Source: Bacteroidales bacterium (GTDB lineage Bacteria; Bacteroidota; Bacteroidia; Bacteroidales; Paludibacteraceae). From it: DNA of 64,000 nucleotides. The stretch lies in assembly GCA_015061165.1 (NCBI GenBank), contig SUXC01000005.1, positions 1 through 64,000 on the forward strand, in the 5' to 3' direction. The position numbers and the translations under genes were made by a program. The stretch's first letter is position 1. Every line of letters starts with the position of its first letter. The notes below the pieces were generated by a model. The model ran no database searches. It saw nothing but the letters and a program-made list of their open reading frames with translations, and was not told where the DNA came from. Shown piece after piece: positions 209-62,310 of the stretch.

Positions 209-3200
209 TTATAGTTCTATTATTAACTGTTTGATTTCGCCATCGCGGGCGAAGATGTGTTTGCTTTGTTCTGGAGTGAGGGTTACACAACCTGTGCCCT
301 TGCCCGTTTTGCGGTAGATAATCTCTGTGCCACAATACGAGAAGCGCAGTTCGCCATGTTGAGGCGAAAGGTTAGAAGATTTGAAATCTACATCGGTGAG
401 CATGATGGGGCAGAAGGTGATTTGTCCATCTTGCACGTGTACGCCCAACTCGAAGAAGCGAGAGATAATGTCCTCCTTGACCTGTCCTGTCATGCCTGGT
501 TGTTGAACACCGCTCATAGAAGGCGTATGCGAATAAGCATCAAATGGGAAAGATCCGTACTCGGCAGGGGTCTTGTGGGAGCCGATGCCTTCTCTAATCG
601 CCTTGTAATGGGCGATTAGATTGGACGCAGCTTCGCTGCTATGGGACGGCGTTCCGCCTATTGGATATTGGCTATTGGCTTGAATACATTCGCCGACGGC
701 GAGGAGGAGTTTGCTGACCATGTGCCAGTAGATACAACTCAGACCTTCGTACTTGTAGAACGTGCCTGAACGACCTGTGAACGCATGGTGGTTGAAGAGC
801 TGTTCGTAGAGATTGAGCAGTTGCTCTGTCTCCTCTGGGGTGATGTCTTCGCTGCTCTTTTGGATAGCGCGCAGGAGGAAGTCGGCATTGTTGAAGTTAG
901 CCGAGAAATGTACCTTACCAGTGCAGTCCTGCGTGAGGATATCCGTAGCATGATGAGCCAAGAGGCGTTGCACGATAGGCAAGGATAATGCCTCCTCTGG
1001 CAGGGTGTTCATATCTAAGAAGGAAGCGCGTTTGCGTGCGGGATAGAGCATGTAGCTGCGTTGGTCTTCGCGATAAAGTGCGGATTGGCGCATAGCGTCC
1101 AGCAAGTCGGCTGCTTGCTCGGTATTCAAACGGCGAGAAGAGAGGACTGCCACCTGACCCTCGAGCATCTCATAGAGATGGCTGATGGAGATAGTGCCAC
1201 GGTCGAACTTCACGAGATTGTAGGCATGGTACAGACCATCTTCGCGCTGATTGACATCGATAGACTGGTCGATGAAATCAAGCGTCATAATGAGGAACTG
1301 GCAGATGAGCGATGCGTCCATCTCCACTTTCTTACCAGAGTGTCCTGCGTAGATAGCATTGCGGTATGCCTCGCCTGCACGACCTACTTGGTCGGTAAAG
1401 GTGCGGCGGGTGTGGTCTGTGAAGGTAATTGGTTGGTCGGCTTGCTCTGGCAAGTGATTGACCATAGCGGTCAGTATATTGCGCAGGAAGAGTACCACCT
1501 CTTCGGAGAGCGCGTAGGTGTCGGATATAGGCGATGAGGCGAGAGGCAAGGAAGAATGGGCTGCGCCATCATAGAGTTGAATAAGGAAGGTCACGAAGCG
1601 GCGCATATAGTAGAGCGTGACCATAGAGGCACCATTGCCTACCAACGCATTATTGGCATCGTTCCACTCAGGGCGCAGGGTGTTCATCCATATACCTGCT
1701 TCGGGAATGAAATTGCTGAGTTTGGTGAGTAGTGTGATGAGCAGTTTCTCGGTGAAAGTAACCAAGAGTGGTTGGTCGTCAGTACCCATCACGAGGCGCG
1801 CATCTTGTCCGTAGGTGGACAGCTGTGAGAAGATATGGTCGTGGGCTGCTTGGTCGAACGTGATGGTGTTCTTAGGATTGCGCACGATGTCCGCATACGA
1901 GCGGAAGCGATAAGGCACAGCAGCGAAAGCAAACTCGCGCATGCCCAACATATCGCGCAACGCCTGTGGGTTGTGCTGGTGGCTGAGTTCGAGTAGGCGA
2001 CAGAGATAGATAATCTGGTGGTCGCCCCAATAGCCGATGTTTGACCAAGGGTTCTCGGGCTCGATGACCTCCCAATCAATGCCTTCGGAGGTCACTTTGT
2101 ATGGATTATAGCCATCGGCTGTGGTTGCGTTGAGGAACTTAGCGATGATACTATTCACATAATCAGGGTAGGAGAGCGATAGGGCTTCCCAGTTCTGGAA
2201 TATGTCGCGCCAGTTGCCTTGGTAGGAGATGATATGGTGGTCTTGCTCATCCTTCACGCGGATATCAAAGAGGTTCCATGGACGGCTGGGGTCGCCATGA
2301 CGGCGCGAGAATGTGAGTGGCAAGTACTCCATGAAGAGGCGGTGGAGTTGGTGGTCCTGACGCTCCTGCACCGCTTGGTCGAGTTCGGCATGAGAGATGG
2401 ACTCGGGCAGATTGGTGAGGAAGGTATGGTGTTTGTCTGCCAAAGCACGGTTGAAGAGGGCGACATGCGCTGCGAAAGCGGGACCAGAGATATGATAATT
2501 GTCGCAATAGAAGCCACCGCGCATGGTATTGAAGAGCGTGTTGGCAAAATGGCGTACATCGTTGGCCTCATCCGCCGTGGATTGTACACCATCGTTCTGC
2601 GCCACTATTTGGCGAAGGTTGGCGGTAGTGGTTTGCAGGGCTGATTGCAACTGCGCTACTGCATCGGGTTGCTGCATGAACGCCATGCTGCGGCGAACAG
2701 AAACAGCATCCTGCATGACGTCGCAGATGAAGTGCCACTGAAGTTCAGAGGTTAAAGGTGAAAGGTTAGAGGTTAAAGGCTGGGACATGTCTTTAACAGG
2801 GATGGTAGCAGTGAAATGGGCGAAGATGGCTCCGCGAACACCTTTGGACTCGGATTCTGGTTGGATAGTGCCACCACGACGGAACGTGTCGAGTTGGGTG
2901 CTTGAACAGAGATATTGGGTATCGGGAATCGGGTGTCGGGAATCGGATAAGGTATAAACAGTGTTGCAACGAAGGGATTCGCTGGGTTCGGCACGGTCCA
3001 CAAGGATAGCCTCCATGCGGAAGAGTACCATACCATTGCCTACATGTTCGGTGCGCTTGTAGCCATCGACCAGTGTGGAGAAGGTGTTTTGCGTGATACG
3101 CTCTACTCCCGAAGGCATGACATTCTGCAAGCCATCTAATACCTCGACGGTGATAGGGGCATCGGTCTCGTTGGAGAGATGAGCAGTGCGCACCCAACCG

Positions 3201-3619
3201 AGATGGGTAGCAGGTGCCCACTCGTAGGAGAAGATAAGTCCTAAATCTACATTCTCCTCGCGGAAGAGCAGGCGGTTGCCCGTTACCGACTTGGCAATGG
3301 AGCGAATAATATGGTAGGTGCCCATCTGACGCGATGAGAAGGGTTCCCATAGTTGGGTGCCTTGGGCAGTGTGTACGCGGAGGATAGTCTTAGGACCAGT
3401 CTGCTCGTAGTTCTCGGTGATCTTATCATCGGTGTAGTAAGGGAAAAGCACCTGTTCGGGGTTGCGGCGACCACATGTGAGTCCGCCTGTGGATGAGATG
3501 TACATCCAAAGGTCGGTATCGCTGGCCAACGATATGAAGAACGGCTGCATGTGATCGTAGTGATAGATGCAGTAGAAGCGTTCGCCGTGGATGTCTATGT
3601 AGTGTCCTGTGGGGGTCAT
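209..3619 (-). CDS. GH94/GH149/GH161-type glycoside phosphorylase, probable beta-1,3-glucan phosphorylase
   Basis: 1136-aa ORF with an N-terminal GH94-like domain (GGLTCGRRNPEQVLFPYY...). Length and laminarin-locus context favour the large GH149/GH161-type enzymes. No signal peptide. Confidence 0.65.
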   Translation of the reverse strand: MTPTGHYIDIHGERFYCIYHYDHMQPFFISLASDTDLWMYISSTGGLTCGRRNPEQVLFPYYTDDKITENYEQTGPKTILRVHTAQGTQLWEPFSSRQMGTYHIIRSIAKSVTGNRLLFREENVDLGLIFSYEWAPATHLGWVRTAHLSNETDAPITVEVLDGLQNVMPSGVERITQNTFSTLVDGYKRTEHVGNGMVLFRMEAILVDRAEPSESLRCNTVYTLSDSRHPIPDTQYLCSSTQLDTFRRGGTIQPESESKGVRGAIFAHFTATIPVKDMSQPLTSNLSPLTSELQWHFICDVMQDAVSVRRSMAFMQQPDAVAQLQSALQTTTANLRQIVAQNDGVQSTADEANDVRHFANTLFNTMRGGFYCDNYHISGPAFAAHVALFNRALADKHHTFLTNLPESISHAELDQAVQERQDHQLHRLFMEYLPLTFSRRHGDPSRPWNLFDIRVKDEQDHHIISYQGNWRDIFQNWEALSLSYPDYVNSIIAKFLNATTADGYNPYKVTSEGIDWEVIEPENPWSNIGYWGDHQIIYLCRLLELSHQHNPQALRDMLGMREFAFAAVPYRFRSYADIVRNPKNTITFDQAAHDHIFSQLSTYGQDARLVMGTDDQPLLVTFTEKLLITLLTKLSNFIPEAGIWMNTLRPEWNDANNALVGNGASMVTLYYMRRFVTFLIQLYDGAAHSSLPLASSPISDTYALSEEVVLFLRNILTAMVNHLPEQADQPITFTDHTRRTFTDQVGRAGEAYRNAIYAGHSGKKVEMDASLICQFLIMTLDFIDQSIDVNQREDGLYHAYNLVKFDRGTISISHLYEMLEGQVAVLSSRRLNTEQAADLLDAMRQSALYREDQRSYMLYPARKRASFLDMNTLPEEALSLPIVQRLLAHHATDILTQDCTGKVHFSANFNNADFLLRAIQKSSEDITPEETEQLLNLYEQLFNHHAFTGRSGTFYKYEGLSCIYWHMVSKLLLAVGECIQANSQYPIGGTPSHSSEAASNLIAHYKAIREGIGSHKTPAEYGSFPFDAYSHTPSMSGVQQPGMTGQVKEDIISRFFELGVHVQDGQITFCPIMLTDVDFKSSNLSPQHGELRFSYCGTEIIYRKTGKGTGCVTLTPEQSKHIFARDGEIKQLIIEL

Positions 3620-3697
3620 TGTTGCTTTGTTTGAGTCGGGATTCGGGAGTCGGGAATCCGATCTTTTTTGGAATCGGGAGTCGGGAGTCCGAGGGTA

Positions 3698-5134: not shown

Positions 5135-5212
5135 GATTCATTATTTTTTTGAGAGTCGGGAGTCGCGAGTCGGGAATCGGGAATTGTGAATCGGGAATCG
5201 CGAGTCGGGACT

Positions 5213-6187
5213 CTAGTGGTTAAACTGGTATATGCGAATATAATCAATGTACATTTTGACAGGGGTGCCATCTGCGGGTAGGGCGGTTACACGTTGGAAG
5301 TTCTCGTGGTCGGCAGTATATACCTCGGGGTACTTCTCGTGCATTGGTAGCCCTGGGAAGAAGCCACCTACTGCTAAGTTGAGCACGATATAGAATGGAT
5401 GGTTGAAGTAGTGTCCTGGTTCGTTGATAGATTTATCACGCAGCGAGAGTGCGAAATAAGGTGCTACCTCAGGATATTGGTCTTGGTCAAGGTACATAGC
5501 CAGACTATCTTCCGTCCAAATGACGGTGAAGAGGTGGAAGTCGCCTTGCACAGGATAAGCAGCTTCGCATACGCCTGCTTCGTTAGGGTACTTGCCATCG
5601 TTAAAACTTTCGCCCCAGTGCGCAGCCCCGTTGAAATAGCGGTCGGAAAGACCTTTCTCGATACCATCTTTGTGACCCATCTCTACAATGTCGATCTCGC
5701 CGCATTTAGGCCATACTACGCGCCCTTGTGCAGCCAACTGCTCGCGCTGACGGTCGATAGAGTCATCGTTGCCGAGGTTGGTAGCAAGATTATTGCCGAG
5801 CATCCAGAACGCAGGCCACAAGCCATCGGCAGTGTGAGGGAAAGCGATACGCGCCTCGATCTTGCCATAACAAACGGTAACTTTGTCCTGAGTATTGACA
5901 CGTGCCGAAGTGGCAGGGCGATTGCGATAGTCCTCGCGTTTGGCATTGAGCACGAGGCATGACTCGCCCGATACGGGGTGGCGTTCGATAGTGACATTGC
6001 GGGGGGTGTAGTATTGCATCTCGGCATTGCCTCCACCACGAGCGTTATCGTCCACGTTCCAATAAGCAGTGTCCAGCGTAGGGGCATTGAAATCATCTTC
6101 CCATACGAGGGTATAGGGCTGTTTAGCGTGGCAGGATGATAGCAGCACTGCGCTTAACGATAAGAATATAAACTTAAAGGGTTTCAA
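5213..6187 (-). CDS. GH16 beta-glucanase (laminarinase-like) lipoprotein
   Basis: Lipobox LLSSC; GH16 motif GEIDIVE; C-terminal MYIDYIRIYQ. Confidence 0.88.
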   Translation of the reverse strand: MKPFKFIFLSLSAVLLSSCHAKQPYTLVWEDDFNAPTLDTAYWNVDDNARGGGNAEMQYYTPRNVTIERHPVSGESCLVLNAKREDYRNRPATSARVNTQDKVTVCYGKIEARIAFPHTADGLWPAFWMLGNNLATNLGNDDSIDRQREQLAAQGRVVWPKCGEIDIVEMGHKDGIEKGLSDRYFNGAAHWGESFNDGKYPNEAGVCEAAYPVQGDFHLFTVIWTEDSLAMYLDQDQYPEVAPYFALSLRDKSINEPGHYFNHPFYIVLNLAVGGFFPGLPMHEKYPEVYTADHENFQRVTALPADGTPVKMYIDYIRIYQFNH

Positions 6188-6207: not shown

Positions 6208-7263
6208 TTATTGTATTTGTTGTCCTACGATATTGTATAGTTGTCCGTTTTTGCGGATGAAGATTTGTCCGTTGTGGATGATTTTTTGTGCAGGTTGGGA
6301 TAGAGTAATATCTTCTACTGCGGTATCGTCGTCGGGTTCGATTGCATCGGAAGGCGATGGAGAGATGAAAGTCTCTTTGTCGGTGCCCTGTTGGTAGATA
6401 CGAATCCAGTCAATATAGACCGAACGTGGGCCATCGGCAAGAGCCGTAATCTTGTTGATGTCCCAAATCTGAGGGAAGTTGCCACCTACGGCGAGGTTAG
6501 CGATGATGAAGTTAGGCTTAGCAAAGACACGACTGCGGTCGTAGTTAGCATCGTTGTTGGGCTCAAGGTCAGCGTGGAAGTATGGTTTTACGCCTGGGTT
6601 GGCATCGCGGTCCATATACATGTCGATAGAGGTGGGTGTCCAGATCATGGTGACAATATGGAAGGTGTCTTCTACGGAATAAGGATAGGTGATGTCTTGT
6701 GCATCGCACCACACGGTGTTCCATGCTGAGCCGAGATGGAGTGCGCCATTGAAGTAGCGGTCTTGGGTGCCACGGTTGATACCATTGGCATTGCCCAACT
6801 CAATGATGTCGGTCTCTCCGCAACGTGGCCATCCTACTTGGTCGAAGTCATTACCCATCTGCCAGAATGCAGGCCATAAGCCATTGGCAGTGTTGGGGAA
6901 CTTGATACGGGCTTCGATCTTGCCGAAGGTGTAGTAGAGATTATTCTTGCTATTGACACGACCCGAAGTGCATTTCTTACCTTGGTAATCCTCTTTGGTG
7001 GCAGTGAGCACAAGGCAATGCTTGCCGGTGATAGGTTCTACGTCAAGGGTTACACCTTTCTCGCAATAGTATTGCAACTCGTTGTTGCCACCACCATCGC
7101 CATTAACCTCTATGTTCCACACATTGCGGTCGAGGGTAGCGTCGGTGAAGTCTTCGTTCCAAACGAGGGTGTAGTCGTCTGCGATGAGGCGATAAGGCGA
7201 AGAGGCGAGGAGGATCGCGAAGAGAATTATGAATTTTGAATTTTGAATTAAGATAGTTTTCAT
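6208..7263 (-). CDS. GH16 beta-glucanase with short C-terminal tail
   Basis: GETDIIE motif; tail KIIHNGQIFIRKNGQLYNIVGQQIQ. Start trimmed from 7293 to the signal peptide MKTILIQNSKFIILFAILLASS. Confidence 0.83.
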   Translation of the reverse strand: MKTILIQNSKFIILFAILLASSPYRLIADDYTLVWNEDFTDATLDRNVWNIEVNGDGGGNNELQYYCEKGVTLDVEPITGKHCLVLTATKEDYQGKKCTSGRVNSKNNLYYTFGKIEARIKFPNTANGLWPAFWQMGNDFDQVGWPRCGETDIIELGNANGINRGTQDRYFNGALHLGSAWNTVWCDAQDITYPYSVEDTFHIVTMIWTPTSIDMYMDRDANPGVKPYFHADLEPNNDANYDRSRVFAKPNFIIANLAVGGNFPQIWDINKITALADGPRSVYIDWIRIYQQGTDKETFISPSPSDAIEPDDDTAVEDITLSQPAQKIIHNGQIFIRKNGQLYNIVGQQIQ

Positions 7264-7271
7264 GGGATTAT

Positions 7272-8516
7272 TTATTGTAAAAGTTGGTAGCAATTAAAGG
7301 TTCCTTTTAGTGCTTCAAGGCGGAGGGTATGGTTGCCGAGCGGTGGGATGACGGTAGTGGTGAGCGTAGTAGGGGCTTGCAAATCATTAGTTTTTGGCAT
7401 GTCCACTATAGCTTGGGCTACACCATCAATAGAAATACATACTTGACTATTGACGATGGAAGCGTATTGTATTTGCAGCGGTTGTTTGCTTTGTACATTG
7501 ATTTGATAATCAATCCATTGTCCTTGCATGAAGGATTGGATGTAGAGTTGGTTGTTATCAGTAACGCGCAAAGATATATTTTCCTCTTTCAGGGCGATGT
7601 ATTGGTGTGCACCTACGCCCTTTTCGAGAGAGAGGTAGGCGTTTTTGTCGAAAGAAGAGAACTGGGTGAAGATTTGTCCGAGTGGCGTGAGAAGGACTGG
7701 CGAGCCGTGGGTGAGGAGTTGCATATAAGGTGCAGAATCCACTTTGCCACTGGTGCGAGGCATGAACCATGCGTAGCGTTCTACGTGAGGGTTTTGCTCC
7801 ATGTGGTTGAGGACAGAGCACATATAGTCCATTTGCTTCTCTACATTGCTTGGCACAGGATCCCATGCGCAGAACTCGGTCATCCAGATGGGTTTGCCGT
7901 ATTTCTCAAAACGCTTGATATAATCTTTGACTGCAGAAGGCGATGCCATGTAGCAGTGGATAGCAATAGCGTGGATATTGTCAAGGGAGACGTTGGGCTG
8001 TGCAAAGAACTCATCGAGCCACTTGATAGGGTCGTGATAGCCCGCGAGTGTGCCATAGTTCATGGCAGGGGAGATGAGTTTGAGGTTCAGTTCTCGGGCT
8101 AATGCTACCACTTGTGGCCACTGCTCAGCCGCCTGCGCAGGGGTCATATTGCATTGGTCAGTGAGGTTAGGTTCGTTGAAGCCAAGCAGGTACTTGGTAT
8201 TAGGGTGCTCTTGCACGTACTGACGAATCTTGGCTGCACTATAGGAGCCATTCCAACACATAGGGCAGAAGTCCATCTCGTTGGTATCGAACCAAAGGGC
8301 AGCGGTGCTGTTTTGGTCGTTTGCCCAGTTGTAGGACCATGAGATAGCAGGCGAGAGTAATGGGAGGTCCTGGATATTGGTGAAGTTGAAGGACACACCG
8401 CGTTTGGCACTCTTCTGCATAAGAGAGGGCTGGTCGTGCGTAGGGGAGTTGCCGTTGCAAGAGATTAGGAAGAGAGCACTTATTACAACAAATATTTTAC
8501 TACTTAGCTGTTTCAT
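7272..8516 (-). CDS. GH128-like beta-1,3-glucanase lipoprotein
   Basis: Motifs YLLGFNEPNL and PIWMTEFCAWD; lipobox FLISC; C-terminal CBM-like extension. Confidence 0.8.
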   Translation of the reverse strand: MKQLSSKIFVVISALFLISCNGNSPTHDQPSLMQKSAKRGVSFNFTNIQDLPLLSPAISWSYNWANDQNSTAALWFDTNEMDFCPMCWNGSYSAAKIRQYVQEHPNTKYLLGFNEPNLTDQCNMTPAQAAEQWPQVVALARELNLKLISPAMNYGTLAGYHDPIKWLDEFFAQPNVSLDNIHAIAIHCYMASPSAVKDYIKRFEKYGKPIWMTEFCAWDPVPSNVEKQMDYMCSVLNHMEQNPHVERYAWFMPRTSGKVDSAPYMQLLTHGSPVLLTPLGQIFTQFSSFDKNAYLSLEKGVGAHQYIALKEENISLRVTDNNQLYIQSFMQGQWIDYQINVQSKQPLQIQYASIVNSQVCISIDGVAQAIVDMPKTNDLQAPTTLTTTVIPPLGNHTLRLEALKGTFNCYQLLQ

Positions 8517-9805: not shown

Positions 9806-9990
9806 GTTCGTTGGTTGTTCGTTTTAGGGCTAAGAGGAGGTAATCAGCCTCCTCAAAGCGGGGGAATTCATTGCTTACTGATACGCTATACCTATACGAA
9901 TGTACCGTTTATCTATCGTGTATCTAACGTATATCTATCGTGTATCTAACGTAACTAATAGCGTAGGAGTAGCGATGTGTTAGGGGTTGC

Positions 9991-24742: not shown

Positions 24743-24753
24743 GTTCCTTGCCT

Positions 24754-26631
24754 TTAACCTCTAACCTTTAATCTTATCGCTTCCCATCCCTTGCGTAGTA
24801 ATCGCTTAACGCGTGCAATGATTGACCATGTCTTGCTGGCAGGCGGAATCTCCATCAATAGCGTATCCACATCGGGTCCTCCTGTCAATTGCTCTGGGTA
24901 AACGACCATCGAACTGAAGTTCGTGAAATGCTGTGTCAGCATGGTAGGAATCTCCTCAAATAGAGGATGATAACTGGCGGTGGACTTACGCGAAGATAGC
25001 AACACCAACATATCATTCTCCATGATGGTTTGGGATATGATTCCCACTTCTTCCCAACCTTCCATATTTCGGAATGAGGCGCGCAGGTACTTTCCCGGAC
25101 GGCGACACATGGCTTGCAATGCTACTTGGGTATCTGGATGCGCATAGAATATCACTTTTGCCCCTAACTCACCCGACAAACGGCGTACCAGACCGAAGCA
25201 AGTGATAAAGTCGCGTTCTTTCTCGGCATAGCGTGGTACAGCCACTACCAATCTATTAATAGTGTTGATAGGTTGCGCTTCGTGATAGACAATGACCGAC
25301 TTGCTGGTGTGCTCAACGATATTGCTCACATCCAGCCAGTCTGCAGACTGCTTGATTTCTATATTGTCCAATGTCGCCATCTCGCCTATCTCGCGCAAGG
25401 TAGGACGCAGGTCTTTGCCCACGGAAGTCAATAGCCAATAGTCGTCCTCGTGGTCGGCTTCCAGTTTGGCACTCTCCTGCAAGGCTAATTCCTTAGCAGC
25501 ATGTTCGGATATGAAACTGGCTGTTGTACACAGCACCAATATCATCAAGACTGATGCGTTCAGCACATCCGAGGATAGGAGCCCCATTTGATAAGCAATC
25601 GTCACGATAGCCAAGGTGCCTGCTGCGGTAGCATGCGATAGACCAAACACCAGTTGGCGCTCATGTTTCGAGAAACGGAAGACAAATTGGGCTATCCAAG
25701 CGGCAATACTCTTACCAACTAATTTTGTGGCTATCATCACGAGCGCTATTGTCAATGTGGTCCATCCACTCCAGAACGCATGAATATCAATCATCAGTCC
25801 AACGCTGATGAGGAATAGAGGCACGAAGATACTATTGCCCATAAAGGTGATACGATGCATGAGTGGCGAACGGTTGGGCAGTAGTCGGTTGAGTGAGACA
25901 CCGCAGAGGAAGGCGCCTAAGATACCCTCCAGTCCTGCCAAGTCAGCCAACAAGGCACTACCTACCAGCATCAGCATCACCACCATGAACTCAGAGATAG
26001 GGTCGCGATAACGCTTGAAGAACATCCGAGCGAAGCGAGGGAATAGCCATAATACGCTCACAAGGAACACCGCTAAAATGCCGATTTGGATGACATAGTC
26101 CATCGTGGTCTGTCCCGCATTGCTCCAGCCTTCCGCAATTGCCAACACCATGAGTGACAGCGTGATAGCCACCATGGTTGCACCTACAGTGATGTTCACG
26201 GCTACGTTCTTCTGTACGCCATAACGGCTCACAATAGGGTAGGTCATTAGTGTGTGACTACCATACATTGCCCCCAGCAACAAACTGGACAACCAGCCAT
26301 ATGGAAGTAGAAACCTACTGGTAATGATGCCCAAGGCAAAAGGTATAAAGAACGTGCACAGACCAAAGAACAACGAGCGGTATTTGTATTGCTTGAAGTC
26401 ATTGATATCTATCTCGCTGCCCGATTGGAACATGATATACAACATGCCCAGCGAGCCAAGAATCTTGATAGTAGGTCCTTCGTTCACAATGTTCAGCACC
26501 GACGGACCAATCACAATGCCCGCCAAGATAAAACCCACAATGCTCGGCACGTGAATCTTACGACACACGAGTGGCACAAACCAAATGATGCCAATAACAA
26601 GGGTGAGTATTAGTAATGGCGACAATGTCAT
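24754..26631 (-). CDS. Cation:proton antiporter (CPA2/Kef-like)
   Basis: Multiple TM helices; IVGFILAGIVIGPSVLNIV, LEGILGAFLCGVSLNRLLPN. Confidence 0.9.
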   Translation of the reverse strand: MTLSPLLILTLVIGIIWFVPLVCRKIHVPSIVGFILAGIVIGPSVLNIVNEGPTIKILGSLGMLYIMFQSGSEIDINDFKQYKYRSLFFGLCTFFIPFALGIITSRFLLPYGWLSSLLLGAMYGSHTLMTYPIVSRYGVQKNVAVNITVGATMVAITLSLMVLAIAEGWSNAGQTTMDYVIQIGILAVFLVSVLWLFPRFARMFFKRYRDPISEFMVVMLMLVGSALLADLAGLEGILGAFLCGVSLNRLLPNRSPLMHRITFMGNSIFVPLFLISVGLMIDIHAFWSGWTTLTIALVMIATKLVGKSIAAWIAQFVFRFSKHERQLVFGLSHATAAGTLAIVTIAYQMGLLSSDVLNASVLMILVLCTTASFISEHAAKELALQESAKLEADHEDDYWLLTSVGKDLRPTLREIGEMATLDNIEIKQSADWLDVSNIVEHTSKSVIVYHEAQPINTINRLVVAVPRYAEKERDFITCFGLVRRLSGELGAKVIFYAHPDTQVALQAMCRRPGKYLRASFRNMEGWEEVGIISQTIMENDMLVLLSSRKSTASYHPLFEEIPTMLTQHFTNFSSMVVYPEQLTGGPDVDTLLMEIPPASKTWSIIARVKRLLRKGWEAIRLKVRG

Positions 26632-28664: not shown

Positions 28665-28730
28665 AAACTCTACGGGAACTCTGCGGGAACTCTGCGGGAA
28701 CTCTACGGGAACTCTACGGGAATTGTACGG
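28665..28730. repeat. 11-nt tandem array, consensus GAACTCTACGG
   Basis: Six consecutive 11-mers: AAACTCTACGG, GAACTCTGCGG x2, GAACTCTACGG x2, GAATTGTACGG. Confidence 0.92.
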
Positions 28731-28772
28731 GATTGGCTATATAAAACATAGATTATTGTCGCGTTTTTGGGG

Positions 28773-29840
28773 TTATTTTATAACGGGACTGTTTACTACT
28801 TCTGTTACGGGATTTTCTTCTACTTCTGCAATGGGATTATCTGCCACTTCGCGGATGATGTCGCGGAGGCGGGCAGGAGTGAGGCGGTCAAAACTCTCAC
28901 GGTTGGCTACAATGCCAATACCTGCCATCTCAACCGTAGCAGGAGAGAACAATATACGTTCTTCCTCTGGAGCAAAGAAACACATTGGGCGGGATTCGCG
29001 GCGGAAGAAGATGATGGTATGAAACATACCGTTGTGTAGGGTGGTGTAGCGTTGTGTAGCGTTGTGTAGCGTTGTATTTTCGGCGGACGATTCTACACTA
29101 TTCTGCACCATGCTACACGATTCTACACTATCGCTATTTGGCGATGGCGTGTACCACGAAACAATATTCCACCGTGGTTCGTATTCTTCGGCATGAGAAG
29201 CACCGATAGTCAGAGAGCCCGTTTGGCTGGCTTCTTCGGGGATAGTGCCCATAGCAAGCACGCGCTTGACGGCTGCCAAATGGGATTGCAGATCCGTTTC
29301 TTGCACCAAGATAGCGTTGGCATAGTTGGTGGAGAAATGGTCTTCTATGGGGAGACTGTGGCGAGGCACAGCCTGGAAATGCATATGGTCGGGGGCACTG
29401 GCACCGCACATAGGACCATTGTAGAAAATGGTCATCTCGGGCAGCTCCTTCGCTAAATGCATCATGGCTTCGAGGTGAGGCAGCAGTTCTTGGCGTTCGT
29501 GTACGGAGGAAGAAACGGTGAAGTGCGGAGAGAAAATAGGGAAAGGGTTTACGCGTATATAATAGGTGTGCCCTGTTGGGGATTCCCAATTATGGGTGAG
29601 TTGGTTTGCCTCCACGCCATCGGGGCAGAGGAAGCAAGCGCGCTGTTGCAGAGCTTCGGGGCTGACGTCAGCCATGACGCTGCGGACACGAGCAGGGTTG
29701 AAAAACAATTTGGCAGGGAAACCGTCGATAGTCATATCCTTGACTTCGACCCCTGCAAGTGCTTCATAATTAAGGAATGCTCTCCCGTGAGCACTGAGCT
29801 CGCGGGAGAACATGTCAAATATTTGTTGATAAAGTGTCAA
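28773..29840 (-). CDS. DUF4922-type protein with HIT/GalT-like HxHxQ motif
   Basis: CFLCPDGVEANQ, YIRVNPFPIFSPHFTV, PDHMHFQAVPRHSLPIE. Confidence 0.85.
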   Translation of the reverse strand: MTLYQQIFDMFSRELSAHGRAFLNYEALAGVEVKDMTIDGFPAKLFFNPARVRSVMADVSPEALQQRACFLCPDGVEANQLTHNWESPTGHTYYIRVNPFPIFSPHFTVSSSVHERQELLPHLEAMMHLAKELPEMTIFYNGPMCGASAPDHMHFQAVPRHSLPIEDHFSTNYANAILVQETDLQSHLAAVKRVLAMGTIPEEASQTGSLTIGASHAEEYEPRWNIVSWYTPSPNSDSVESCSMVQNSVESSAENTTLHNATQRYTTLHNGMFHTIIFFRRESRPMCFFAPEEERILFSPATVEMAGIGIVANRESFDRLTPARLRDIIREVADNPIAEVEENPVTEVVNSPVIK

Positions 29841-29938
29841 AACAGTTTAAAGTTTATAGTTTAAAGTTTATAGGCACGGAGTATGCGGCTCTGCCGCCCT
29901 CGCCTTTAACCTCTAACCTTTAATCTTGAACCTAATGA

Positions 29939-45909: not shown

Positions 45910-45918
45910 CTATCTGCA

Positions 45919-45973
45919 CCACACAATAACCACACAATAACCATACAATAACCATACAATAACCACACAATAA
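45919..45973. repeat. 11-nt tandem array, CCAYACAATAA
   Basis: Five consecutive 11-mers: CCACACAATAA x2, CCATACAATAA x2, CCACACAATAA. Confidence 0.92.
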
Positions 45974-46064
45974 ATACAATTTTTACTTAACGCAACCGAG
46001 GTCCACCGTGGACGTGTCCACACGGATGAGGAAGCAATTTATTAACCAAAAAAACAACAAATTT

Positions 46065-48635: not shown

Positions 48636-48642
48636 TTTCCAG

Positions 48643-48705
48643 CCTCTCGCCTCTAACCTTTCGCCTCTCGCCTCTAACCTTTCGCCTCTCGCCTTTAACC
48701 TATAA
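48643..48705. repeat. Heptameric degenerate array (CCTYTMR)n
   Basis: CCTCTCG CCTCTAA CCTTTCG CCTCTCG CCTCTAA CCTTTCG CCTCTCG CCTTTAA CCTATAA. Confidence 0.93.
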
Positions 48706-48729
48706 ACTTTACAAAAAAAAACACAAACG

Positions 48730-58487: not shown

Positions 58488-58757
58488 AAATGTTAGCGAT
58501 GAGGCTCCCTGCCTTTTGCTTCTAACCTCTCGCCTTTCGCCTCTCGGAAATCCCTGAGCGCCCAATGTGTTGTTTTGGGCGCAAAGTTGTTGAAACAAAG
58601 TTGTTTATGTTGTTGCAGACAAAAACCAGTTAATTGATTTTAATTGTCAATTAAGTTGTCTAAGTTGTCTGATGACAAAACAATAGCGCATACGCGCACA
58701 AGCGACCTTTGTAATCATGTACGCCTATGGCTTGCCTCTTGCTTGCCCTTCATCTCC

Positions 58758-58851
58758 ATTGGAACCTCATTGGAACCTGATTGGAATCTGATTGGAACCT
58801 CACCATAGGATAAGCAAGAGATAAGCATGGGATAAGTATGGGATGGGTGTT
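58758..58851. repeat. Two adjacent 11-nt arrays
   Basis: ATTGGAACCTC/ATTGGAACCTG/ATTGGAATCTG/ATTGGAACCTC, then GGATAAGCAAG/AGATAAGCATG/GGATAAGTATG. Confidence 0.9.
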
Positions 58852-58868: not shown

Positions 58869-59110
58869 CCCGAATGTTATTCGGGTAATTCCATAGAGAA
58901 TTATCCCCCCCACACCTCCATAGGTTTAGTGCTCGGCGTTAGTTCGCCGAGTCTCCGCATTCGGTGGTACCCTTGGCATGCATGCCGAGTAAACGTAGTA
59001 ACTACCCGCCCTCGGGCGACAACATAAAAACAGTTTAGAGCGAAGCGATAAAAGCTCCGTGCCTTTAACCTCTCGCCTCTCACCTTTAACCTAAATAGCA
59101 GCTCTGCTGC
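58869..59110. repeat. String of distinct short palindromes
   Basis: CCCGAAT-gtt-ATTCGGG; TAATTC-catag-GAATTA; CTCGGCG-ttagtt-CGCCGAG; GGCATGCATGCC; CGCCCTCGGGCG; GCAGC-tct-GCTGC. Confidence 0.8.
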
Positions 59111-59211
59111 CTCCAACGTGAGCGCAGCGAGCAAAAAAGCGACCTTTGAAATATTGTATTTTGTAGAGTATAGAGATATATCATTTTTTGTGGTATATTT
59201 TTGCTCAAATA

Positions 59212-60112: not shown

Positions 60113-60587
60113 TTTCCATGTGATATTGAATCAACCACGGACGGCACGGATGGGCATGGGAACACGATAAACATATCCTTGTTTCAGTGTTGTTCCGTGA
60201 GTTTCAGTGGTCAGTACATACCCGCGGAAAGATGTCTCTCAGTGGGAGATAATTCCAACCACAGACGAGCACAGATTGCCACGGAAACTCGGAATTGATG
60301 ATAATACTCTACAAGTTCTTAATCATTGTATTAGGAACTTGTTTGTTTTGTGTCCGTTACCGAAACAAACGAAATACAACTACCCGCCCTCGGGCGACAA
60401 CATAAAATAACTTTGAGTGTAACGAAAAGTGCCCCCGCCTTTACACTTTACACTCTACGCTGTACACCAAAACAGCGGCTTCGCCGCAAAAGCGATCTTT
60501 GAAATATTGACATATTTGGATATAGAAAACGACAACCCATTTGTGTGGATTGTCGTTTAGGGAGTTTGAAATGGTTTTAGGTGGAAT

Positions 60588-61853: not shown

Positions 61854-62310
61854 TAATTAGGTAAATTTTACTTTTGAAAAAGTAATTTTATGTGTTATTT
61901 TCGCTTTTAGAAAAGTAATCTGGTACAAAAAAGAGGTTTGTGTTCGAAATTTTGGTGATTTGTCACTATTTTTTCGAGAAGTTATATAATGAAGGGCTAT
62001 AAGCTAAATATGTCAATAGTGCTTAGTTGCACAAATAATAACTATTGGGCATCGTTCATTGAGTTGAACCTTGCTCACAAATAAGAGCCACAGAGGTGCT
62101 ATAGATGTCCTATAGATGTCTTATGGTGGTCGCGAAACAAATAGCAAACCCCGCCCTCGGGCGACCAACATAAAATTTGAGCGTTAGCGATGAAGCCATT
62201 ACCTATAGCCAATCACCTATAGCCAATTGCCCAAAGCAACACTCTACGCTATACACCAAAACGCGGCTTCGCTGCCTAACAAAGAATATTAACAAAAAAA
62301 ACAAAATAAT

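Follow-up and report, generated by a model that had tools for sequence, protein, structure and literature searches.

Lineage-private, in-frame insertions of heptad repeats in a GH149 beta-1,3-glucan phosphorylase gene of an uncultured gut bacterium

The gene for a GH149 beta-1,3-glucan phosphorylase in an uncultured gut bacterium carries five private insertions built from seven-nucleotide (heptad) words that are dispersed through the same genome, and in-frame arrays of such words are present in several other conserved genes. The host belongs to an uncultured genus related to Paludibacteraceae, its relatives being labelled Paludibacteraceae or uncultured Bacteroidales, and the window referred to throughout is a stretch of 64,000 nucleotides of its DNA. 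To our knowledge, neither an origin nor an effect has been assigned to the heptameric repeats that are catalogued in bacteria. In this genome their acquisition can be dated between close relatives and is visible inside conserved enzymes, which offers a testable system for the spread of short repeats and for the extra peptide that bacterial enzymes tolerate.

Results and Discussion

The GH149 gene and its heptad arrays

The product of the 1136-aa ORF at the start of the window (Table 1) matches the NF058639 profile at 1379.5 bits and PDB 6hq6 with an E of 2e-291, and its AlphaFold model shows a TM-score of 0.90 to 6hq8. The GH149 family is characterized by a WND catalytic loop, an RD motif and a phosphate-site His (PMC6771811), all of which are found in this product: in an alignment of 30 sequences W652, N653, D654 and H966 are invariant, and R471 and D472 nearly so. 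Judged from these residues, the enzyme appears otherwise intact, its known catalytic residues being kept despite the five inserts.

The original prediction placed two 7-nt arrays in frame in this gene, and both are present in the minus-strand ORF, one at 2746-2780 encoding QPLTSNLSPLTSE (aa 280-292) and the other at 2911-2945 encoding SDSRHPIPDTQYL (aa 225-237), with period-7 scores of 13.6 (at 2749-2779) and 11.4 (at 2913-2946), respectively. The number was too low, a third array of CCAATAG words at 659-680 (score 12.4) and insertions at about 1520-1555 and 356-376 having been missed. These three arrays are the sole period-7 segments of the gene that score at least 7. Chance periodicity as their source was ruled out by codon shuffles: none of 1000 shuffles of codon order reached 11.4, the score of the weakest array, and with shuffling restricted to synonymous codons the best score came up to 13.6 in 0.4% of the runs and to 11.4 in 1.9%, and no run contained three such segments.

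Table 1. Repeat-bearing features of the window and the GH149 gene that carries five of them.
Feature	Position	Strand	Remarks
GH149 beta-1,3-glucan phosphorylase gene, 1136 aa, five private insertions	209-3619	minus	NF058639, PDB 6hq6
Site 1: CCGATTC/CCGACAC/CCGATAC array (GGGARTC family)	2911-2945	minus	private aa 226-230 (2930-2944), net +15 nt
Site 2: CCTTTAA/CCTCTAA/CCTTTCA array (RCCTYTM family)	2746-2791	minus	private aa 277-290 (2750-2791), net +42 nt, beta turn
Site 3: degraded RCCTYTM words GCCTCTC GCCTCAT	1520-1555	minus	aa 689-700, net +36 nt, absent in G061 and G063
Site 4: CCAATAG heptads (659-680), then two short GC hairpins	641-680	minus	aa 983-993, net +33 nt, present in G061, absent in G063
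Site 5: TCTTCTA ACCTTTC GCCTCAA	356-376	minus	aa 1082-1088, net exactly +21 nt, absent in G061 and G063
GGGARTC heptads adjoining the GH149 gene, family of site 1	3626-3696 (array 3626-3658)	plus	intergenic
GGGARTC heptad array, about 8 to 9 units	5146-5213	plus	intergenic
RCCTYTM heptads, family of site 2	24745-24781	plus	at gene boundary
Composite: AGTTTAA heptads, hairpin GCGGC-TCT-GCCGC, CCTTTAA heptads (29897-29933)	29841-29937	plus	compared with sister genome
RCCTYTM array, 21-nt higher-order unit GCCTCTC GCCTCTA ACCTTTC	48636-48712	plus	intergenic; 97% match at period 21
39-aa in-frame insertion relative to the sister, ten-base repeats GTGTAGAATC and ACAACGCTAC, two opposed arms able to pair	29020-29140 (gene 28773-29840)	minus	

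Private insertions and their order of acquisition

Alignment of the protein with 19 homologues from the genus and the order, the check proposed with the original prediction, revealed five private word-bearing insertions, and the residues of the two predicted peptides were not found at the same positions in any of these homologues. RCCTYTM words occupy sites 2, 3 and 5, CCGAYTC words (the complement of GGGARTC) site 1 and CCAATAG words site 4. The G063 protein, 78% identical over its whole length, is without all five. In the sister genome G061 (L100), a metagenome-assembled genome from roe deer, the contig ends inside the gene and the comparison covers aa 603-1136 (sites 3, 4 and 5), over which the proteins are 91% identical; G061 is without the insertions at aa 689-700 and 1082-1088 and has that at aa 983-993. 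Given that, of sites 3 to 5, G061 holds site 4 only and G063 none, the insertion at site 4 predates the divergence from G061 and those at sites 3 and 5 postdate it, and two sites being empty in G061 while a third is filled there and empty in G063 implies stepwise, partly recent acquisition. Loss of ancestral residues in the relatives was ruled out by the 19 homologues together with the polarity given by G063 and G061. An assembly artefact might be suspected from the fragmented draft state of the genomes and from the metagenomic assembly of the relatives; the occurrence of site 4 in the separate roe-deer genome, the intact frames in conserved genes and the arrays that other species have of their own leave this idea with hardly any credibility.

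All five inserts fall between secondary-structure elements of the AlphaFold model, which has some of its lowest-confidence segments at aa 281-285, 690-697 and 986-989. The repeat-encoded peptides of GH149 are private to the lineage and, by this model, inserted in loops, and the insertion of heptads into genes is real and larger than first described. Presence or absence in multiples of 21 nt had also been anticipated, which holds for two of the GH149 sites (+21 and +42) and for MutS2 (+21); other sites differ by +15, +33, +36 and +24 nt, so multiples of 21 nt are not general and the rule is that insertions are in frame. Beside site 4, at 590-625 of the window, codons differ from those of the sister and form a near-perfect inverted repeat, CTAATCGCC / GGCGATTAG, perhaps by a quasi-palindrome template-switch event.

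Arrays between genes and composite elements

The word families of sites 1 and 2 had been linked to four arrays outside the gene, and these were all found to hold the same words (Table 1). Many intergenic arrays show a composite layout, with purine-type heptads on the left, a hairpin ATGCGGC-NNN-GCCGC and pyrimidine-type heptads on the right. The genome contains 21 of these hairpins, one at 29883-29897 of the window and 20 others (L238-L258); the count for ATGCGGCNNNGCCGC is 21 against 0 for the reversed control pattern, and no composite-type hairpin was found in 550 kb of the sister genome. Relative to the sister, the copy at 29841-29937 makes a clean difference of 97 nt, and the flanks are identical in the alignment. 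The composite element is quasi-palindromic and folds modestly better than its shuffles, and the pyrimidine-type heptad array folds no better than shuffles. A known RNA family was rejected, as the window gave no Rfam match at the gathering threshold.

The composite units and their hairpins, the clean 97-nt difference and the combination of heptads and hairpins at GH149 site 4 would fit a palindromic element of MITE, REP or RPE type that has heptad arms and is moved by a transposase, the intragenic tracts being inserted or decayed pieces of it. Against this, no junction signature of movement was found, neither terminal inverted repeats, a clear target-site duplication nor fixed ends being seen at the two sites inspected (the 97-nt composite and the MutS2 site); moreover, the hairpin is missing from most intragenic tracts and the arm words differ among copies. 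We consider such an element possible above all for the composite form and quite improbable as an account of the whole. The core GGCTGGTAATATGCGGCTTCGCCGCTATTTCTCGCCT of the composite intergenic element recurs at several loci. A unit with CCCGCCCTCGGGCGAC and AAAAGCGACCTTTGAAATATTG is present three times in the window (58994-59156, 60372-60509 and 62139-62262), with heptads between its parts.

Heptads across the genome and in other genes

Arrays were surveyed in 759 kb, 31% of the genome, at a period-7 score threshold of 11. Period 7 was the commonest, with 103 arrays, the counts for periods 5, 8, 10, 11 and 13 being 4, 20, 29, 41 and 1. Sixty-two of the 103 lie outside and 41 inside ORFs called by a simple longest-first rule, by which a few short ORFs may be spurious; with about 90% of the sample called coding, heptads are overrepresented in its non-coding DNA.

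In-frame heptad arrays are present in MutS2, RecQ, FolK, UvrA, MurC, MtaB and a WecE-like transaminase, and insertions that preserve the frame were found in GH149, MutS2, FolK and RecQ. MutS2 has QLTNRQSPISNNRILV here and RLTDNRILV in its closest relatives G014 and G025; the insert, AATCGCC AATCACC AATATCC, adds a net of exactly 21 nt, and the array is absent from all other genus homologues read. At UvrA and at C13:12330 the tract substitutes for residues instead of lengthening the protein. The intragenic tracts are 15-60 nt of heptads and mostly of single-strand type, lacking a palindrome; genes yielded no conserved unit of 100-150 nt.

The sister comparison used 73 orthologue pairs with G061, scoring private insertions of at least 4 aa for 11-mers from the intergenic arrays of the present genome. 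These 11-mers occur in 10 of the 24 insertions private to this genome and in none of the 15 private to the sister (Fisher p 0.003), the test being one-sided in that it covers this genome's words only and one sister-private insertion being an (ACGGAAA)n heptad tract; among random coding segments the frequency is 1.8%.

We consider it probable that the arrays are copies of a few dispersed families of heptad words, and that the copies surviving inside genes are those that are in frame and in loops and leave the enzyme fold intact. The families (RCCTYTM, GGGARTC, CCAATNG, AATTCAA and others) are dispersed through the genome, with copies inside genes as well as between them, and their words may be copied from existing arrays by ectopic template switching or conversion and then undergo slippage. 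Insertions disrupting the reading frame or the fold would be lost; survivors would have a net length that is a multiple of 3, often 21, would be without an in-frame stop and would lie in loops, so that the enzyme keeps its fold and gains a small repeat-encoded peptide, which is likely to be near-neutral. Replication slippage of native loop codons in situ, that is, an ordinary minisatellite that each time arises on the spot from a seed present by chance, without copying from site to site, would account for the 21-nt higher-order units, and beside one insertion point in RecQ GGCGAAAGGCGA is already present in the sister. Slippage alone leaves unexplained, however, that the inserted words are those dispersed elsewhere in the same genome, and the empty sites of relatives have no seed at GH149 site 5 and MutS2; we regard it as unlikely.

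Species-specific words and the UvrA loop

The heptad words are species-specific. A run of three GGGARTC units is present 21 times here; elsewhere it is found in 1 of 60 genomes of the genus and in 3 of 294 of the class, and RCCTYTM triplets are present in 38 of 61 genus genomes at 0 to 107 per genome. Within a family, word variation is confined to the same two or three positions in intergenic and intragenic copies (e.g. R, Y and M of RCCTYTM). The UvrA loop that follows the CPCC(R/K)GLGK motif carries heptads in 9 of 27 species (per-species p <=0.02), the words being TCGGGAC here, ACGGAAA in the sister, AAAGGCG/AGAGGCA in G014, GAGTGAA in G027, AAAGTCG in G015 and GGCGAAC in G002. A pooled lag test on UvrA was set aside in favour of per-species shuffles, as a control region gave lag signals too because the sequences are related. 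As the words at comparable places differ from one related species to another, the repeats seem to be spreading and adding small peptides to proteins. The sister genome contains a heptad family of its own, ACGGAAA/TGAAAAC, which is likewise found in frame in genes (L222:3922-4009, L180 UvrA, L216:9707-9775).

Persistence in frame in conserved genes could also be expected if the peptides were selected functional additions, for example binding motifs. Such selection is very hard to reconcile with UvrA loop words, and hence peptides, that differ among species, with GGGARTC words that lie in genes in both orientations and with the same peptides recurring in unrelated proteins. It is conceivable, if doubtful, that each species of the genus has a heptad dialect of its own and that genome-wide copying or conversion rewrites permissive coding loops with its current words; in that case the UvrA loop would have been overwritten independently in species after species, and heptads would be an active source of protein loop sequence, not accidental insertions. 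Species-specific words could also act as strain markers.

Relation to known repeat systems

The likeness to Rickettsia palindromic elements (RPE) put forward in the original prediction extends to the outcome and stops short of family membership. RPE are in-frame elements in housekeeping genes whose peptides lie in loops or solvent-exposed areas, and they are palindromes of about 100-150 nt with conserved sequence and several families per genome (PMC3767692, PMC10969869). Dispersed repeats in frame in housekeeping genes, peptides in loops and several families per genome are common to both; here, in contrast, the tracts are 15-60 nt long, mostly non-palindromic in genes and variable in their words. 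Only the intergenic composites are quasi-palindromic, and at the sites read the palindromic version (heptads, GC hairpin, complementary-type heptads) is almost always intergenic. Since the intragenic tracts are not palindromic units of about 100-150 nt, the heptad insertions were not assigned to RPE and stand outside that family.

Heptameric G-rich repeats are known as GGGAATC in Xanthomonas and GGGGA(C/T)T in Nostoc, with repeat regions reportedly conserved for the most part between two species (83%; PMC4692102). The 103 arrays of the survey are likewise 7-nt tandem units dispersed over the genome, and they agree with the Xanthomonas repeats in the identical word GGGAATC, in mainly intergenic dispersal and in a minority inside ORFs, whereas several lineage-private insertions in enzymes and the coexistence of many word families set them apart from both. 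From the words themselves, formation of G-quadruplexes is plausible for GGGARTC only, the other families being without G tracts. TAACTGA heptamers occur in Beggiatoaceae, cyanobacteria and some Bacteroidetes, with one dominant word and some copies in ORFs, mostly at protein ends, and one reported case at a surface loop of an RNA polymerase-like protein (PMC4679880). The present repeats are also dispersed 7-nt direct repeats with some copies in ORFs; unlike TAACTGA, they comprise several words, are internal to conserved enzymes and have empty sites in relatives. The cyanobacterial STRR, 7-bp tandem repeats between genes of which some can form hairpins (PMC2670836), are alike in being intergenic 7-bp tandem repeats and differ in words and phylum. 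The present case combines two known things, heptamer repeats and in-frame palindromic insertions, and reaches the outcome of an RPE by means of heptads.

A palindromic repeat, CTCCCTTCCCTTTAGGGAGGGG..TGGGGGTAGGC, is found between genes and also in frame inside MutS2 and RecQ (C23:218375, 219612, 236754; C3:85414, 85474, 162519; C13:62588); being palindromic, it is closer to RPE. Arrays of period 11 (and 22), at 9906-9953, 28666-28732, 45918-45980, 58757-58844 and 62099-62124 of the window, form the second commonest class here and the commonest in the sister sample. At 7224-7249, in a minus-strand gene (6208-7293), AATTCAA heptads encode LIQNSKFIIL near the N-terminus, in an apparent signal peptide.
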